Below, piece by piece: positions 11,173 through 16,714 of a stretch of 64,000 nt of DNA (positions within the stretch are counted from its first letter, which is position 1; each line of letters starts with the position of its first letter). Made by a program: the position numbers and the translations under genes. This DNA comes from Streptomyces sp. NBC_01498 (lineage in GTDB: Bacteria; Actinomycetota; Actinomycetes; Streptomycetales; Streptomycetaceae), in assembly GCF_036327775.1 (NCBI RefSeq), contig NZ_CP109598.1, positions 4,216,001-4,280,000 of the forward strand, in the 5' to 3' direction. Under the pieces are notes generated by a model, which was not told where the DNA came from, searched no databases, and was given only the letters and a program-made list of their open reading frames with translations.

Positions 11173-11175
11173 CTG

Positions 11176-11248
11176 TGCCCCCGGCAGGATTCGAACCTGC
11201 GACACCCGCTTTAGGAGAGCGGTGCTCTATCCCCTGAGCTACGGAGGC
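11176..11248 (-). tRNA. tRNA-Arg (anticodon CCT)
   Basis: On the minus strand 73 bases fold into a complete cloverleaf: acceptor GCCTCCG with CGGGGGC, D arm GCTC/GAGC, anticodon arm CCGCT-CTCCTAA-AGCGG, T arm GCAGG-TTCGAAT-CCTGC and discriminator A. The anticodon CCT reads AGG arginine codons. CCA is not encoded. A degenerate copy of the whole gene lies 4 kb away at 15263-15335. Confidence 0.96.
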
Positions 11249-11702: not shown

Positions 11703-13385
11703 GTGGGTTACACCATTCCCGAAGGCGTCGACACGATGCTCGATGTGATCGGTGTGGGCTGGCCGAACGTCGATGAGGACGCCTACCGTGACATGGCGGA
11801 CGCGTTACGGGAGTTCGCGGATGACGCGGACGACGACGGGCACGCCGCGCACCGGCACATCCAGCGACTGCTTTCCAGCGGGCAGAGCGAGTCCCTGACC
11901 GCTCTGGACGCCCACTGGTCCAAGGTGCAGGGCAAGCACAAGGATCTGGCGAAGGCGGCCCGGATCATCGCGGGCGCGCTCGACCGTGTCGCTGATCTCA
12001 TCGTGGCCCGGAAGATGGCCGCGGTCGGTGAACTCGCCGATCTGTGCGCCACGGTGGGGATCACGCTCGCCTTCGCTCCGTTGACGGCCGGGCTGTCGAC
12101 GCTCCTGGCGGGTGCGAAGATCGCGGCCACCCGGATCGCGTTCAAGAGAATCCTCAAGGAGATGGCGGAGGCAGCCGTCGCGGAGATCGTCGCCACTCTC
12201 ACGGAACCGGCGGTCGCCGCGATCGAGAACGTCGTGGCGGACCTGGCGATCCAGGCGGCGCTGAACGTCGTCGGCGTACAGAACGGCATCGACACCGACC
12301 GGACGGTGCAGGCCGGCAAGGACGGACTCCAGCTCAACTCCGCCCCGGGAGCGGGCGGTCCGGGCCCCGGCGGCGGACCGGTCATTGACCACGACGCGCA
12401 CGGGGACACCGGCACACACCTGGCCGGTGTCCAGGTCTCCATGCGGGACAAGACCGGCGGCAAACTCACCAAGGCCAAGAGCCACCACGGCCGCGCCAAG
12501 GGCAAGGACTCGCTGACCGCCGTCCTCGACACGACCATCGAAGGCGTGACCGAGAAACTCGGCAAGGCACTGGGGGACCTCGGCGACCACGTCGGCAAGA
12601 CTCTGCCCAACTCCATCACCGCGAGCTCGAAGACTCACAAGGACGCCGACCAGGACGTCCGCGACGGAGTGAGGAGTGTCAAGTCCCCGCCGGGAAAGGA
12701 CAAGGGCGTCCCCGGTGGTGGGGGCGGTGGCGGTGGCGGGGGGAACGGCGGGGGCCCGTCCGGCGGAGGTCCCAACGGGAAGCCCCTGAGCCCCCAACCC
12801 GGCTGGCACGGGAAGAGCGCCGGCAAGATGAAGCACCACCGACGCGACGCACTTGACGTGAATCATCTGAGTGAGGAGCAGCAGCGGGCCGCCCTTGTCC
12901 GGGAGACGCGCGACCTAGCCGACAGTGCCCGTGACCAGGAGGCGGGGCACAATCCGCCCGGCAAGGACCGTCTGGTGAAGTCGTGCGCGGGAGGGCTGCT
13001 GCACGAGGGGACACTGACGAGCCACTCGAGCTCCACCAAACGGCACGGACAAACGCTCCTCGACACCCACCCCGCGCTCAAGAGCGTCGTGGATCAGGTG
13101 GAGAAGGACATTCGCGCGGACAACGAGAACCCGGGCGCGGGGCATGGCAAGTGCGCCGAGATCGCGCTTGTATCCGACCGGCTCCATGGTATAGAAGAAA
13201 GAGACAACGCAACGATCAGCACGCCAGAAGATATTCGCCGAGTGATGAGCGGAGCACTTGTCTACTCCCTGCAAATCGGAGAACAGGACTCGCCCACCGG
13301 GTTGAAAGAGCACGGCGATTACAAAGAGCCGTGTCGCTCGTGCTCAAGAATTCTTCCGCTGATCGGTGTCGAGGCACACAGTTAG
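11703..13385 (+). CDS. Polymorphic toxin: WXG100-like N-terminus with YwqJ-type deaminase C-terminus
   Basis: The 560-residue protein begins GYTIPEGVDTMLDVIGVGWP, a helical WXG100-like export module seen in actinobacterial type VII-associated toxins (residues 1-110), followed by hydrophobic helices to about 220, a linker with a Gly run at 338-358, and a C-terminal domain from about 420. That domain carries the deaminase signature: GGLLHEG, the zinc and proton-shuttle motif C484-A-E486, and P-C544-R-S-C547. YwqJ-like domains are predicted nucleic-acid or nucleotide deaminases used as effectors against competitors. The GTG at 11703 follows AAGGGGG and is preferred over upstream ATGs at 11421 and 11646. 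The region from about 13170 has visibly lower GC than the rest, suggesting the toxic tip was exchanged. Two SUKH-3 immunity genes follow. Confidence 0.82.
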   Translation: MGYTIPEGVDTMLDVIGVGWPNVDEDAYRDMADALREFADDADDDGHAAHRHIQRLLSSGQSESLTALDAHWSKVQGKHKDLAKAARIIAGALDRVADLIVARKMAAVGELADLCATVGITLAFAPLTAGLSTLLAGAKIAATRIAFKRILKEMAEAAVAEIVATLTEPAVAAIENVVADLAIQAALNVVGVQNGIDTDRTVQAGKDGLQLNSAPGAGGPGPGGGPVIDHDAHGDTGTHLAGVQVSMRDKTGGKLTKAKSHHGRAKGKDSLTAVLDTTIEGVTEKLGKALGDLGDHVGKTLPNSITASSKTHKDADQDVRDGVRSVKSPPGKDKGVPGGGGGGGGGGNGGGPSGGGPNGKPLSPQPGWHGKSAGKMKHHRRDALDVNHLSEEQQRAALVRETRDLADSARDQEAGHNPPGKDRLVKSCAGGLLHEGTLTSHSSSTKRHGQTLLDTHPALKSVVDQVEKDIRADNENPGAGHGKCAEIALVSDRLHGIEERDNATISTPEDIRRVMSGALVYSLQIGEQDSPTGLKEHGDYKEPCRSCSRILPLIGVEAHS

Positions 13386-13398
13386 ATTGGGGGCGACG

Positions 13399-13872
13399 AT
13401 GCCGATACTTTCCACAGCCGAAGAAGTCGACGCGTGGCTGACGGAAGCCGGCTGGTACCCGGGCCGTGACGTCGGTGAGGAGGCGTCCGACGCGATCGCG
13501 GCCGTGGTCGAGCGATACCGTTCCTACGGCGTGGACATCGAGCCTTCCGCACCTGCCCGCGCTTTCATCAGGGAGCACGCTTTCCTTCTGGCTGTCATCG
13601 ACACCGCTCCGGAGAACTTCGCGGTTTTCACGCCGCATCTCGTCTTCAAGGGAGACGCCGAGGAAATCTCCGAGCTGGCCGGAGACCTCGGTGTGAAACT
13701 CTTTCCGGTCGGATACGACACGTACGACGGCTCCACCATCCTCATGGACGACACCGGTCGGTTCTTCTTTTCGCACCACACCGGGGCGTATTATCTGGGG
13801 CGCGAAAAATACGAGGCGTTGATGAGCCTGATGAGCAGTGATATGGAAGATGCGGAGGACTACTTTGTCTGA
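13399..13872 (+). CDS. SUKH-3 family immunity protein
   Basis: This 157-residue acidic protein shows the SUKH-3 pattern: AWLTEAGWYPGRDVG at the start, AIAAVVERYRSYG, and the strand pair LGVKLFPVGYDTYDGSTILMDDTGRFFFS. SUKH proteins are cytoplasmic immunity factors that bind and block secreted nuclease or deaminase toxins. It begins 13 bases after the toxin stop, with GGGGG upstream of ATG 13399, and overlaps the next gene by eight bases. It is therefore the likely cognate immunity protein for the deaminase toxin at 11703-13385. Confidence 0.83.
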   Translation: MPILSTAEEVDAWLTEAGWYPGRDVGEEASDAIAAVVERYRSYGVDIEPSAPARAFIREHAFLLAVIDTAPENFAVFTPHLVFKGDAEEISELAGDLGVKLFPVGYDTYDGSTILMDDTGRFFFSHHTGAYYLGREKYEALMSLMSSDMEDAEDYFV

Positions 13873-14254
13873 CCTCGTTCCGGGTGTGGCCGCGTCACTG
13901 CTCGTCCACGGCCGGATCTTCAGCCACACCAGTCTCGGCGGCGACGAGCAGCCCGATCTCCACCCCGCCGTGCTGGAATTCTTCGACGAACTGCCCGTGG
14001 AGCAGCGCGAGTCCTTCATCGGATACTGCGCCGAGTCCGCTCTCGTCTCGGACCAGTTGTGGGCGCTCGACCGCCTGCGCGCCGACGGGGGGACGACGAC
14101 TCTTGACGAGGCCGCCACGCATCTCACCGCCGCGGCCCTTGTCGCACAGAAGATTCGCGGCCACGGCGATCCCGAGCACGGCACTCCCGCACAGGTGTGC
14201 CGCTCCTGCTCGGCACTGCTCGACCGGCTCGGCATCGACGTCATCGACTCATGA
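13865..14254 (+). CDS. Free-standing YwqJ-type deaminase domain
   Basis: The 129-residue protein consists of little more than a deaminase domain homologous to the end of the upstream toxin: VAASLLVHGRIFSHTSLGG aligns with the toxin segment beginning AGGLLHEG, then C55-A-E57-SALVSDQ and C112-R-S-C115. All recognisable catalytic positions are kept, so it may be active. It lacks any export or WXG100-like region. A TTG at 13865 is chosen because GGAGGA lies five bases upstream; ATG 13850 and GTG 13838 are alternatives. It overlaps the SUKH-3 genes on both sides (eight and four bases), so it is part of the operon. It could be an orphan toxin tip that recombines onto the upstream gene, or a co-opted accessory enzyme. 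Confidence 0.75.
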   Translation: MSDLVPGVAASLLVHGRIFSHTSLGGDEQPDLHPAVLEFFDELPVEQRESFIGYCAESALVSDQLWALDRLRADGGTTTLDEAATHLTAAALVAQKIRGHGDPEHGTPAQVCRSCSALLDRLGIDVIDS

Positions 14255-15198
14255 CACGGGGCGTGGACGCGCTGACGACCGCCGGCTGGTACGAGGGCCG
14301 TGATGTCAGGGACAACGCCCTGTCGGCTGTCCTCAGGACTGTCGCACTCGTCGAGCCGGTGGCCGACGGAGCGGCGTGGGTGCTGTTCCCGGCCGCCGAA
14401 CGGGCCTTGCGTGAGTTCCATGGGCTGCGCCTGCCCCCTGACGGACCAGGCCGCGATGTGGCGGCCACGGGATGCGTGATCGACCCCACGGAGGCCCGGC
14501 ACGCGCTGCGCCCGTTCCTGCTTCTCGGTGAGGCGACGGGCTCCCGGCTGTTTCCCTTCGGCCGTACGGACACGGACGCGCTGCTCGCGGTCGACGAGGA
14601 AGGCCGTCTCTTCGCGGTCGACCACGGCGGGCGCTGGCAGCTGGGTGACACCGTGCGTGAGGGCGTCGCCGCGCTGACGGAGGGACGCGCCCCGCACCGT
14701 GTCGCCGCTCGGCGGTGGGCCTGGGACATCCCGCCGATGGAGGACGGAAAGCCGCTGGTCAACGCCGTACGTACCGCGCTGGTGGCCGTGTACGTCCTGC
14801 ACCACCGGCGGGTTTTCAGCGCCCGCGAGCTGCGGCTGACCGTCACGACCCTGCGCGGCATCGGAGGGGAGGCGGTGGACCGCGCCGTACCTCTGCCGGG
14901 CGGCACGCTGGAGGAGAACGCCGCGCCGCTCGCGGCCACGATGGAGGAACTGATAGAGGCCCGGGGCGCCACCACGACGGGCGCCGAACTCAAGCTCACC
15001 GTACGCGCTCCGCGGAACGCCACCGTCCCGCTGTCGTCCGTCAGCTGCGCCGTGCGCACAGGGCATTCCGCGAGGGCCCCGGCGATGACGGAACTCTCCC
15101 TCTCCGCAGGCGCGGGCGCCTCGGTCGGCCGGGCCCGGGAGGCCGTCCGGTCCTGTTCCGAGGATCTGTCGCGATACGCCGGAAATCCGTCGCCGTGA
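14251..15198 (+). CDS. Second SUKH-3 family immunity protein, long form
   Basis: This 315-residue protein starts with a SUKH-3 domain: LTTAGWYEGRDV, VLFPAAERALREFHGLRLP and LFPFGRTDTDALLAVDEEGRLF over residues 1-150. The second half, from about residue 165 (WDIPPMEDGKPLVNAVRTAL), is a separate region I cannot assign. The start ATG overlaps the stop of the deaminase gene (ATGA). It is probably the immunity protein for the free-standing deaminase. The extra C-terminal region is unusual for the family and may reflect fusion to another immunity or adaptor domain. Confidence 0.75.
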   Translation: MTRGVDALTTAGWYEGRDVRDNALSAVLRTVALVEPVADGAAWVLFPAAERALREFHGLRLPPDGPGRDVAATGCVIDPTEARHALRPFLLLGEATGSRLFPFGRTDTDALLAVDEEGRLFAVDHGGRWQLGDTVREGVAALTEGRAPHRVAARRWAWDIPPMEDGKPLVNAVRTALVAVYVLHHRRVFSARELRLTVTTLRGIGGEAVDRAVPLPGGTLEENAAPLAATMEELIEARGATTTGAELKLTVRAPRNATVPLSSVSCAVRTGHSARAPAMTELSLSAGAGASVGRAREAVRSCSEDLSRYAGNPSP

Positions 15199-15682
15199 CG
15201 GTTTCCCGGTAGTCGGATTCCCGGTTGTCGGGTCTCCTGGCGGGTACAGGGGCGGCGTCCGGTGTACCCGGCGGTATGCGAACCTGCGACACCCTCTTTA
15301 GGAGAGCGGTGCTCCATCCTCTGGGCTGGAGGGCGGAGGCGCGGCTTCCGGGGCGCCGACAGGGGTCGGGTGGGGCGGCGGCATTTCAACTCGCTTGTCA
15401 GGATCGAGCCCTGTGTAAGGATGAGCCCGTCGCGCGGCAATGGGCCGCGCGCCCGTATGTTTCCCTCTCCTGGATGGCCTTGGATGCAGAGCTCTCAGCG
15501 TCGTATCGTCCGAACCGCGCCTCTTTCCGGCTCGGACGAGTCCGTTTCGCGGCCGCAGCACAGTGGTCTCTTCCTGGAGGCCCAGTACACCGTCGACCTG
15601 CCCCCGCTGGACGACGAGGCGGAATTCGAGACCGGACCCGACGCGCACCCGCAACCGCACGCCCACCGCGCAGGGCGCTCGC
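15199..15682. other. Intergenic region between the toxin locus and ppk2
   Basis: This stretch contains the tRNA-Arg pseudogene and little else. A possible short reading frame from ATG 15484 to 15696 (70 residues, acidic middle LPPLDDEAEFETGPD, His-rich end) overlaps the ppk2 start; I cannot tell whether it is translated. No terminator was found after the last SUKH-3 gene. Confidence 0.4.
15263..15335 (-). pseudogene. Degenerate copy of tRNA-Arg(CCT)
   Basis: Seventy-three bases align end to end with the tRNA-Arg gene at 11176-11248, in the same orientation. The core from the T stem through the anticodon arm and D arm is nearly identical, but the anticodon stem has a mismatch, the T loop reads TTCGCAT and the acceptor stem no longer pairs. 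It cannot be a working tRNA. Together with the intact gene it brackets the toxin locus. It may be a relic of tRNA-targeted integration or an old tandem tRNA duplication. Confidence 0.8.
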
Positions 15683-16699
15683 ATGTCGGGGGATGAGCAC
15701 GACGCGGACGTCGAGGCGAGCGTCCTGCTCGACGGGCTGACCGTCGACGACCGGAAACCCGAGCAGCCCGTCCTCCTCGACGAGGACGGCCACCCCATAC
15801 AGACATGGCGGCAGAACTACCCGTACGACAAGAAGATACGGCGCCGTGAGTACGAGCGGACCAAGCGCGTCCTCCAGATCGAACTGCTCAAGTTCCAGCG
15901 CTGGGTTAGGGAGACCGGCCAGCGCGTCGTCGTGGTCTGCGAGGGCCGGGACGCGGCGGGCAAGGGCGGCACGATCCAGCGGTTCACCGAGCGGCTCAAC
16001 CCGCGCGGCGCCCGCGTGGTGGCCCTGGAGAAGCCCACCGAGCGCGAGGCGGGGCAGTGGTACTTCCAGCGGTACGTGGCGCATCTGCCGTCCGCCGGGG
16101 AGATCGTCTTCTTCGACCGGTCCTGGTACAACCGGGCCGGGGTCGAGCGGGTGATGGGCTTCTGCACCCCGGAGGAGTACGAGCACTTCCTCCGCCAGGC
16201 CCCCCAGTTCGAGCGGATGCTCACGGACGACGGCATCCTGCTGGTGAAGTTCTGGTTCTCCGTCTCGCACGACGAACAGCGCACCCGGTTCGCGATCCGC
16301 CAGATCGACCCCGTACGGCAGTGGAAGCTCTCACCCACCGACCTCGCGTCGCTCGACCTCTGGGACGCGTACACCGCCGCGAAGGTCGACATGTTCCGCG
16401 CCACGGACACCGCGCACGCGCCCTGGACCGTGGTCAAGAACAACGACAAGAAGCGGGGCCGGCTGGAGGCCATGCGCAGCCTGCTGTGGCGGACGGACTA
16501 CGACCAGAAGGACGAGACGCTCCTCGGAGCGCCCGATCCGCTCATCGTGGGCCCGGCGGACACCCTGCTCGAAGCGGGCGAGGAGTCCACCGACCTGTCC
16601 CCGACACCGCTGGCCCCCCGCGCGGAGGGCCCCGGCGACCATCCGGCGGAGCCGGGACACCCCGTACGGCCGGAGCGCCCGGCGGAGCCGGGGGACTGA
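15683..16699 (+). CDS. ppk2: Polyphosphate kinase 2 family protein
   Basis: The 338-residue protein has the PPK2 core: Walker A GRDAAGKGGT at residues 88-97, lid and Walker B region FFDRSWYNRAG at 143-153, and the conserved WKLSPTD and WTVVKNNDKKR segments. PPK2 enzymes transfer phosphate between polyphosphate and nucleotides. The core ends near residue 275; the last 60 residues are a Pro/Glu/Gly-rich tail. ATG 15683 places the family N-terminus (TWRQNYPYDKKIRRREYE) at the usual position; longer frames upstream do not look like protein. It converges with the phospholipase-D-like gene. Confidence 0.93.
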   Translation: MSGDEHDADVEASVLLDGLTVDDRKPEQPVLLDEDGHPIQTWRQNYPYDKKIRRREYERTKRVLQIELLKFQRWVRETGQRVVVVCEGRDAAGKGGTIQRFTERLNPRGARVVALEKPTEREAGQWYFQRYVAHLPSAGEIVFFDRSWYNRAGVERVMGFCTPEEYEHFLRQAPQFERMLTDDGILLVKFWFSVSHDEQRTRFAIRQIDPVRQWKLSPTDLASLDLWDAYTAAKVDMFRATDTAHAPWTVVKNNDKKRGRLEAMRSLLWRTDYDQKDETLLGAPDPLIVGPADTLLEAGEESTDLSPTPLAPRAEGPGDHPAEPGHPVRPERPAEPGD

Positions 16700-16714
16700 G
16701 CGCGCGCGGGCGGT

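Follow-up and report, generated by a model that had tools for sequence, protein, structure and literature searches.

Why should an operon for an export-type toxin carry a second deaminase gene whose product has no export region of its own? This question is raised by a four-gene operon at positions 11703-15198 of a 64,000-nucleotide stretch of the 7.27-Mb chromosome of Streptomyces sp. NBC_01498 (genome G000; contig NZ_CP109598.1, positions 4,216,001 to 4,280,000), which we call the window and to which coordinates refer unless stated otherwise. The operon encodes, in order and on the forward strand, an export-type toxin, a SUKH-3 protein (SUKH-3a), a stand-alone YwqJ deaminase of 129 residues (the small deaminase) and a second SUKH-3 protein of 315 residues (SUKH-3b). 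The best explanation, to which we assign a probability of about 60%, is that these genes constitute two cognate pairs, the second being the small deaminase restrained by SUKH-3b and most likely acting in its own cell. In the first pair, a WXG100_2 polymorphic toxin with a YwqJ tip would be neutralised in the producer by SUKH-3a; in the second, the small deaminase, whose activity would presumably be harmful if unrestrained, would be held by the two-domain SUKH-3b and would act inside the producing cell without a carrier.

Gene structure and conservation of the stand-alone deaminase

The toxin gene (11703..13385, GTG start) codes for a 560-residue protein with a WXG100_2 export-type N-terminus (about 11754-12134), a linker and a YwqJ deaminase tip (about 12966-13358) bearing the motifs CAE and CRSC. 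Its N-terminus is constant, whereas the C-termini are exchangeable, being YwqJ, RHS/DUF6531 or PF14440 domains in different proteins, which identifies it as a polymorphic toxin. The presence of the WXG100_2 domain predicts export by a type VII secretion system, and the window's genome contains one match to EccD. The N-terminal query had no match at 7 of the 27 loci (L037, L042, L045, L048, L049, L050 and L069) that encode small-type deaminases (E <= 1e-30) in 392 Streptomyces genomes, implying that the toxin body differs among loci. At L048 the operon is closely followed by a short gene and then by EccD, a type VII secretion component.

SUKH-3a (13399..13872, 157 residues) and SUKH-3b (14251..15198) scored 84.8 and 102.5 bits, respectively, against PF14433 (curated cut-off 23). 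The small deaminase gene (13865..14254), which overlaps both of them, begins with TTG and is preceded by GGAGGA (13854..13859), its likely ribosome binding site, inside the end of SUKH-3a. Its product scored 72.5 bits against the YwqJ-like deaminase family PF14431 (curated cut-off 25.9), the deaminase being all that Pfam recognised in it (residues 4-123). It has the deaminase fold and, as Pfam found no N-terminal trafficking domain on it, is not a whole polymorphic toxin. We take the CAE and CxxC motifs to be its zinc and catalytic residues; both are intact (CAE and CRSC), and the protein is accordingly predicted to be catalytically competent. The original prediction, made from the letters of the window, had described this four-gene layout, CAE and CxxC in both deaminases, the GGAGGA, the TTG start and the overlaps, all of which we found in the sequence, and the failure to fold as a deaminase that would have undone it did not occur.

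The first alternative to be considered is that the small gene is a decaying duplicate kept only by hitch-hiking, in favor of which might be cited the broken copies in L050 (frameshifted) and L051, and the lack of CAE or CxxC in 7 of 113 homologues recovered in a protein search with the small deaminase (92 of these 113 hits, chosen by hand, form our alignment A1, with a few full-length hits also left out). Conservation largely refutes this alternative, and we regard it as very improbable: CAE and CxxC are both retained in 26 of the 27 near-full copies, the gene is under purifying selection (ratio of nonsynonymous to synonymous substitution rates, dN/dS, of 0.12-0.31), and its 8-nt overlap with SUKH-3a recurs in 26/27 loci. 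Furthermore, SUKH-3a lies upstream of the small deaminase in 27/27 loci and GGAG occurs within 20 nt upstream of the small gene in 22 of them. This arrangement may couple translation of the small gene to that of the upstream SUKH-3a and, in this window, of the downstream SUKH-3b. Most homologous loci therefore do not carry the gene as a truncated, non-conserved remnant, and the earlier view of it as maintained rather than debris is supported.

Probable pairing of the deaminases with the SUKH-3 proteins

In a tree of 69 deaminases (without fragments below 120 residues and L069_tip1) the toxin tips are separated from the small and core deaminases, the latter being the family-wide relatives described below, with support 100/100. 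Similarly, in a tree of 76 SUKH rows (without those below 135 residues or with stops) SUKH-3a is separated from SUKH-3b and the core SUKH-3 with support 100/99. The small deaminases were monophyletic in only 14% of the bootstrap trees, and either side of the split between small and core deaminases may be ancestral. Partial Mantel tests, restricted to the 19 loci in which all five parts are present, showed that the small deaminase co-varies with the N-domain of SUKH-3b, given the tip and SUKH-3a (partial r 0.64, p 0.0005), and that the tip co-varies with SUKH-3a, given the small deaminase and SUKH-3b (partial r 0.75, p 0.0005). The cross pairs showed no co-variation (partial r -0.16, p 0.90, and 0.04, p 0.35), and the pattern was repeated in a 13-locus subset. 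Adjacency by itself cannot account for this specificity, since the small gene has a SUKH gene on either side. These observations point to an operon of two cognate deaminase/SUKH-3 pairs, with SUKH-3a the probable partner of the toxin tip and SUKH-3b that of the small deaminase; from co-variation, each SUKH-3 protein is predicted to neutralise its adjacent toxin. The earlier proposal of two toxin/immunity pairs thus gains from congruent trees and pair-specific co-variation, and is qualified by the five loci, discussed below, in which the small deaminase lacks SUKH-3b.

SUKH-3b is itself distinctive in its architecture. Its SUKH-3 domain (residues 6-145) is followed by a C-terminal alpha/beta domain (about residues 151-312; 14701..15195), which a structure model with a mean predicted local distance difference test score (pLDDT) of 93.4 presents as a second domain. 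Neither the model nor the searches produced a clear known fold or relative for this domain. The half of the long SUKH-3 originally reported as unassigned is now a separate, confidently predicted folded domain. Pfam recognised SUKH-3 in 100 of the 100 members of our alignment A2 (99 of the 120 hits listed, chosen by hand, a few full-length hits also being left out) and otherwise scattered weak hits in 1-5 members. Matches to the C-terminal domain occur in 9 of 199 Streptomyces genomes, each of which is also a SUKH-3b holder. The domain adds its own co-variation beyond that of the SUKH domain (partial r 0.62), from which a part in binding the small deaminase is predicted. The two-domain SUKH-3b is paired with the small deaminase in 22/27 loci. 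Among deposited proteins, P0229 joins the C-terminal domain alone to a piece of the toxin N-terminus; it looks, like P0114 and P0117, to be a deletion product. P0223, which combines a deaminase and a SUKH-3 domain in one protein, was rejected as a natural fusion because its CxxC region, where the two parts meet, reads as frameshifted.

The same trees bear on whether the second pair is instead an orphan toxin/immunity cassette, a reserve tip able to recombine onto the toxin gene. Cassettes of polymorphic toxins are described as lying behind a full toxin gene, with the toxin preceding its immunity gene (PMC3482391), and the exchangeable C-termini of this toxin would suit such recombination. Upstream tips are indeed exchanged: L039 and L068 are near-identical in the small deaminase and SUKH-3b (synonymous divergence, dS, 0.07-0.11) and diverged in the tip and the first SUKH-3a (dS 0.80 and 0.53), which suggests that tips were exchanged upstream of a constant second pair. 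However, none of the 27 small-type deaminases in the 392 Streptomyces genomes is fused to a toxin (the accompanying protein search could not return long toxins), the tips and small deaminases stand on opposite sides of the 100/100 branch, and conservation is higher in the small gene than in the tip for 262 of 276 locus pairs (24 loci), whereas reserve cassettes should vary. Together with the SUKH-3a that precedes each small gene, the absence of fusions weakens the reserve-tip option, which the original prediction had listed and which we consider distinctly unlikely. L039 and L068 also each have a second SUKH-3a, which, in contrast to the first, is nearly identical between the two loci.

The core pair of Streptomycetaceae and the probable site of action

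If the small deaminase is not a spare tip, its relatives may indicate what it is. A scan of genome contigs gave 3 loci. In the window's genome, Pfam profiles recognise three domains each of YwqJ and SUKH-3, and every deaminase has a SUKH-3 next to it. One of these pairs is a stand-alone deaminase and SUKH-3 pair on the same chromosome about 160 kb from the operon (L052; G000 C1:4392336-4393209). YwqJ matches (E <= 0.001) occur in 285 of 295 Streptomyces genomes, a single match in most of them, and the core loci examined encode a stand-alone deaminase followed by a SUKH-3 without an export domain. Searches with an alignment of the core deaminases (A3; 15 genomes, 85% mean column identity) gave matches at E <= 1e-8 in 149 of 150 Streptomycetaceae genomes, with E below 1e-40 for 145, covering 17/17 genera, and in 24 of 246 genomes at the level of the class (E <= 1e-15), one of which lies outside Streptomyces. 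Among the matches listed outside this operon type, the core deaminases share 40-46% of their residues with the small deaminase. To judge from sequence, the latter is a paralogue of the core deaminase, and the core pair contains its closest relatives outside this operon type.

Twenty-two core loci were fetched, including L095, whose deaminase lies in two frames, and L096, from outside Streptomycetaceae. A core-type SUKH-3 adjoins the deaminase in all 22. Apart from the deaminase of L096, in which CxxC alone was found, those examined retain both C[AP]E and CxxC. The core SUKH-3 examined (L055, 172 residues) has no C-terminal domain. WHH nuclease and SUKH-1 domains lie beside the core deaminase in 19/22 loci, and XOO_2897 deaminase and SUKH-4 domains farther out in 16/22 (two of the six misses are on 4.3-kb contigs); both combinations are single proteins in the one locus examined for each (L052 and L053). 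The genes prs and/or glmU fall within the fetched stretch in 13/22 loci.

Another possibility is that the small deaminase is a passenger, exported bound to the toxin, or a partner that forms a hetero-oligomer with its tip; deaminases are often oligomeric. The tip (E <= 1e-10) and the small gene (E <= 1e-30) each occur in 16 of 295 Streptomyces genomes and together in 15 (Fisher p 4e-23, with genomes counted as independent and relatedness ignored), and there is a weak residual co-variation between them (r 0.22, p 0.044). This co-variation is slight beside that of the small deaminase with SUKH-3b. Moreover, the catalytic residues of the small gene persist at loci with a split or altered tip (L042, L065, L067 and L069), and the core paralogue is found in the absence of a toxin of this kind, a search of four Streptomyces core loci having turned up no N-terminus of one. 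We therefore judge a passenger or partner role unlikely, though not negligible. The option of a delivered effector in need of a carrier, which the original prediction had raised, would still be compatible with these results.

Several observations nevertheless weigh against the preferred reading of two cognate pairs with intracellular action of the second. The residual co-variation just mentioned is one, and the co-occurrence of tip and small gene is also compatible with a functional link to the toxin or with joint transfer. Intracellular action itself is argued from the lack of an export part and the analogy with the core pair. Five of the 27 loci have a small deaminase without SUKH-3b (L042, L045, L048, L049 and the frameshifted L050), implying that SUKH-3b is not obligatory, or is replaced by other proteins, or that the small enzyme is not very toxic. 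The genes downstream in L045, L049 and L050 encode proteins of 248-265 residues of one look without a Pfam match and, in L050, there is also a gene with a weak match to MORN (YwqK-like; E 6e-6, below its cut-off); such proteins may replace the immunity function in these loci. At L042 the start of the tip reads differently. Finally, a stop interrupts SUKH-3b in G198, and frameshifts divide it into pieces in L065, the small gene being intact in both. The converse is seen in G069 (L060), where SUKH-3b comes after what is left of the toxin N-terminus, and the small deaminase, SUKH-3a and tip were not found; this is as expected for a retained immunity gene.

The family-wide stand-alone pair lends weight to the option, also raised originally, of an enzyme co-opted by the host, and to that of an enzyme that works without a carrier. 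We would tentatively go further, to a view that we hold as possible but less than even: that in Streptomycetaceae a domain that once belonged to a toxin has become established as an enzyme of the cell interior, held by SUKH-3 in a core gene pair; that the second pair of the operon is its mobile relative, which has gained a further inhibitor domain and become attached to the operon of an export-type toxin; and that such pairs serve as nucleic-acid or nucleotide editing switches released from an inhibitor and not as weapons. The odd extra gene offers an example, open to testing, of a toxin domain that is retained although it is not delivered, and it draws attention to a core deaminase-inhibitor pair that is not exported in one of the main families of antibiotic-producing bacteria. 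Should the core pair prove active, Streptomycetaceae would possess an editing or nucleotide-deaminating enzyme that is little studied and is controlled by an inhibitor.

Mobility and comparison with known systems

The operon moves as a unit. The whole four-gene set is present on the 105-kb plasmid NZ_CP108603.1 of Streptomyces sp. NBC_01175 (L097), where a regulator lies upstream and an N-6 DNA methylase downstream. In the window, it is bracketed, as in an integrated island, by a tRNA-Arg (CCT) gene on the reverse strand (11175..11248) and, 4.09 kb away, a 66-nt direct repeat of it (15262..15327, reverse strand, 86% identical), possibly an att-like boundary. An empty site was sought through the downstream flank (15330-16700), which matched in 38 of 41 genomes; 29 loci in other genomes had no tRNA-Arg, one of them having a tRNA-Lys, and hence insertion at the tRNA is not proven. 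The flanks of the window match 1 of 31 other operon loci, in a single 319-nt stretch of 70% identity in L071. Conversely, seven loci (L038, L039, L051, L064-L066 and L068), one with a degenerate operon, share one chromosomal site, indicating that the operon is also inherited vertically.

No title or abstract opening that we found concerned the stand-alone YwqJ deaminases of Streptomyces, although the core locus may have been mentioned in the founding surveys of 2011; neither a constant stand-alone deaminase accompanied by a two-domain SUKH-3 of its own nor the core relative that spans the family appeared in the literature found. The part of Zhang et al. (2012, PMC3482391) considered here describes YwqJ with SUKH immunity, toxin-immunity cassettes and strings of SUKH genes for polymorphic toxins. 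The operon resembles these systems in its PF14431 and SUKH families, toxin-immunity order, WXG-type N-terminus and exchangeable tips; stand-alone cassettes are also described there. It differs from those covered there in that its stand-alone deaminase is constant over 27 loci, falls in a different clade from the tip, was not seen as a tip in these loci and is paired in 22 of them with a two-domain SUKH-3.

The pair of the small deaminase and SUKH-3b is most like the core pair, with which it shares the lack of an export domain, the order of deaminase then SUKH-3, and, in the deaminase and SUKH trees alike, its place relative to the deepest branch. The core pair differs in being nearly universal in Streptomycetaceae, in a SUKH-3 (L055) without the C-terminal domain, and in having no toxin N-terminus found beside it in the four loci searched. 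YwqJ-YwqK of Bacillus subtilis includes a deaminase of the same family, but differs in its LXG N-terminus and YwqK antitoxin, and no second stand-alone deaminase is mentioned in the part of the report considered here (PMC8321402). According to that part, induction of YwqJ strongly affects growth, with no effect on the chromosome or rRNA, and small molecules are suggested as the target, a proposal that offers a lead for the substrate of the small deaminase.

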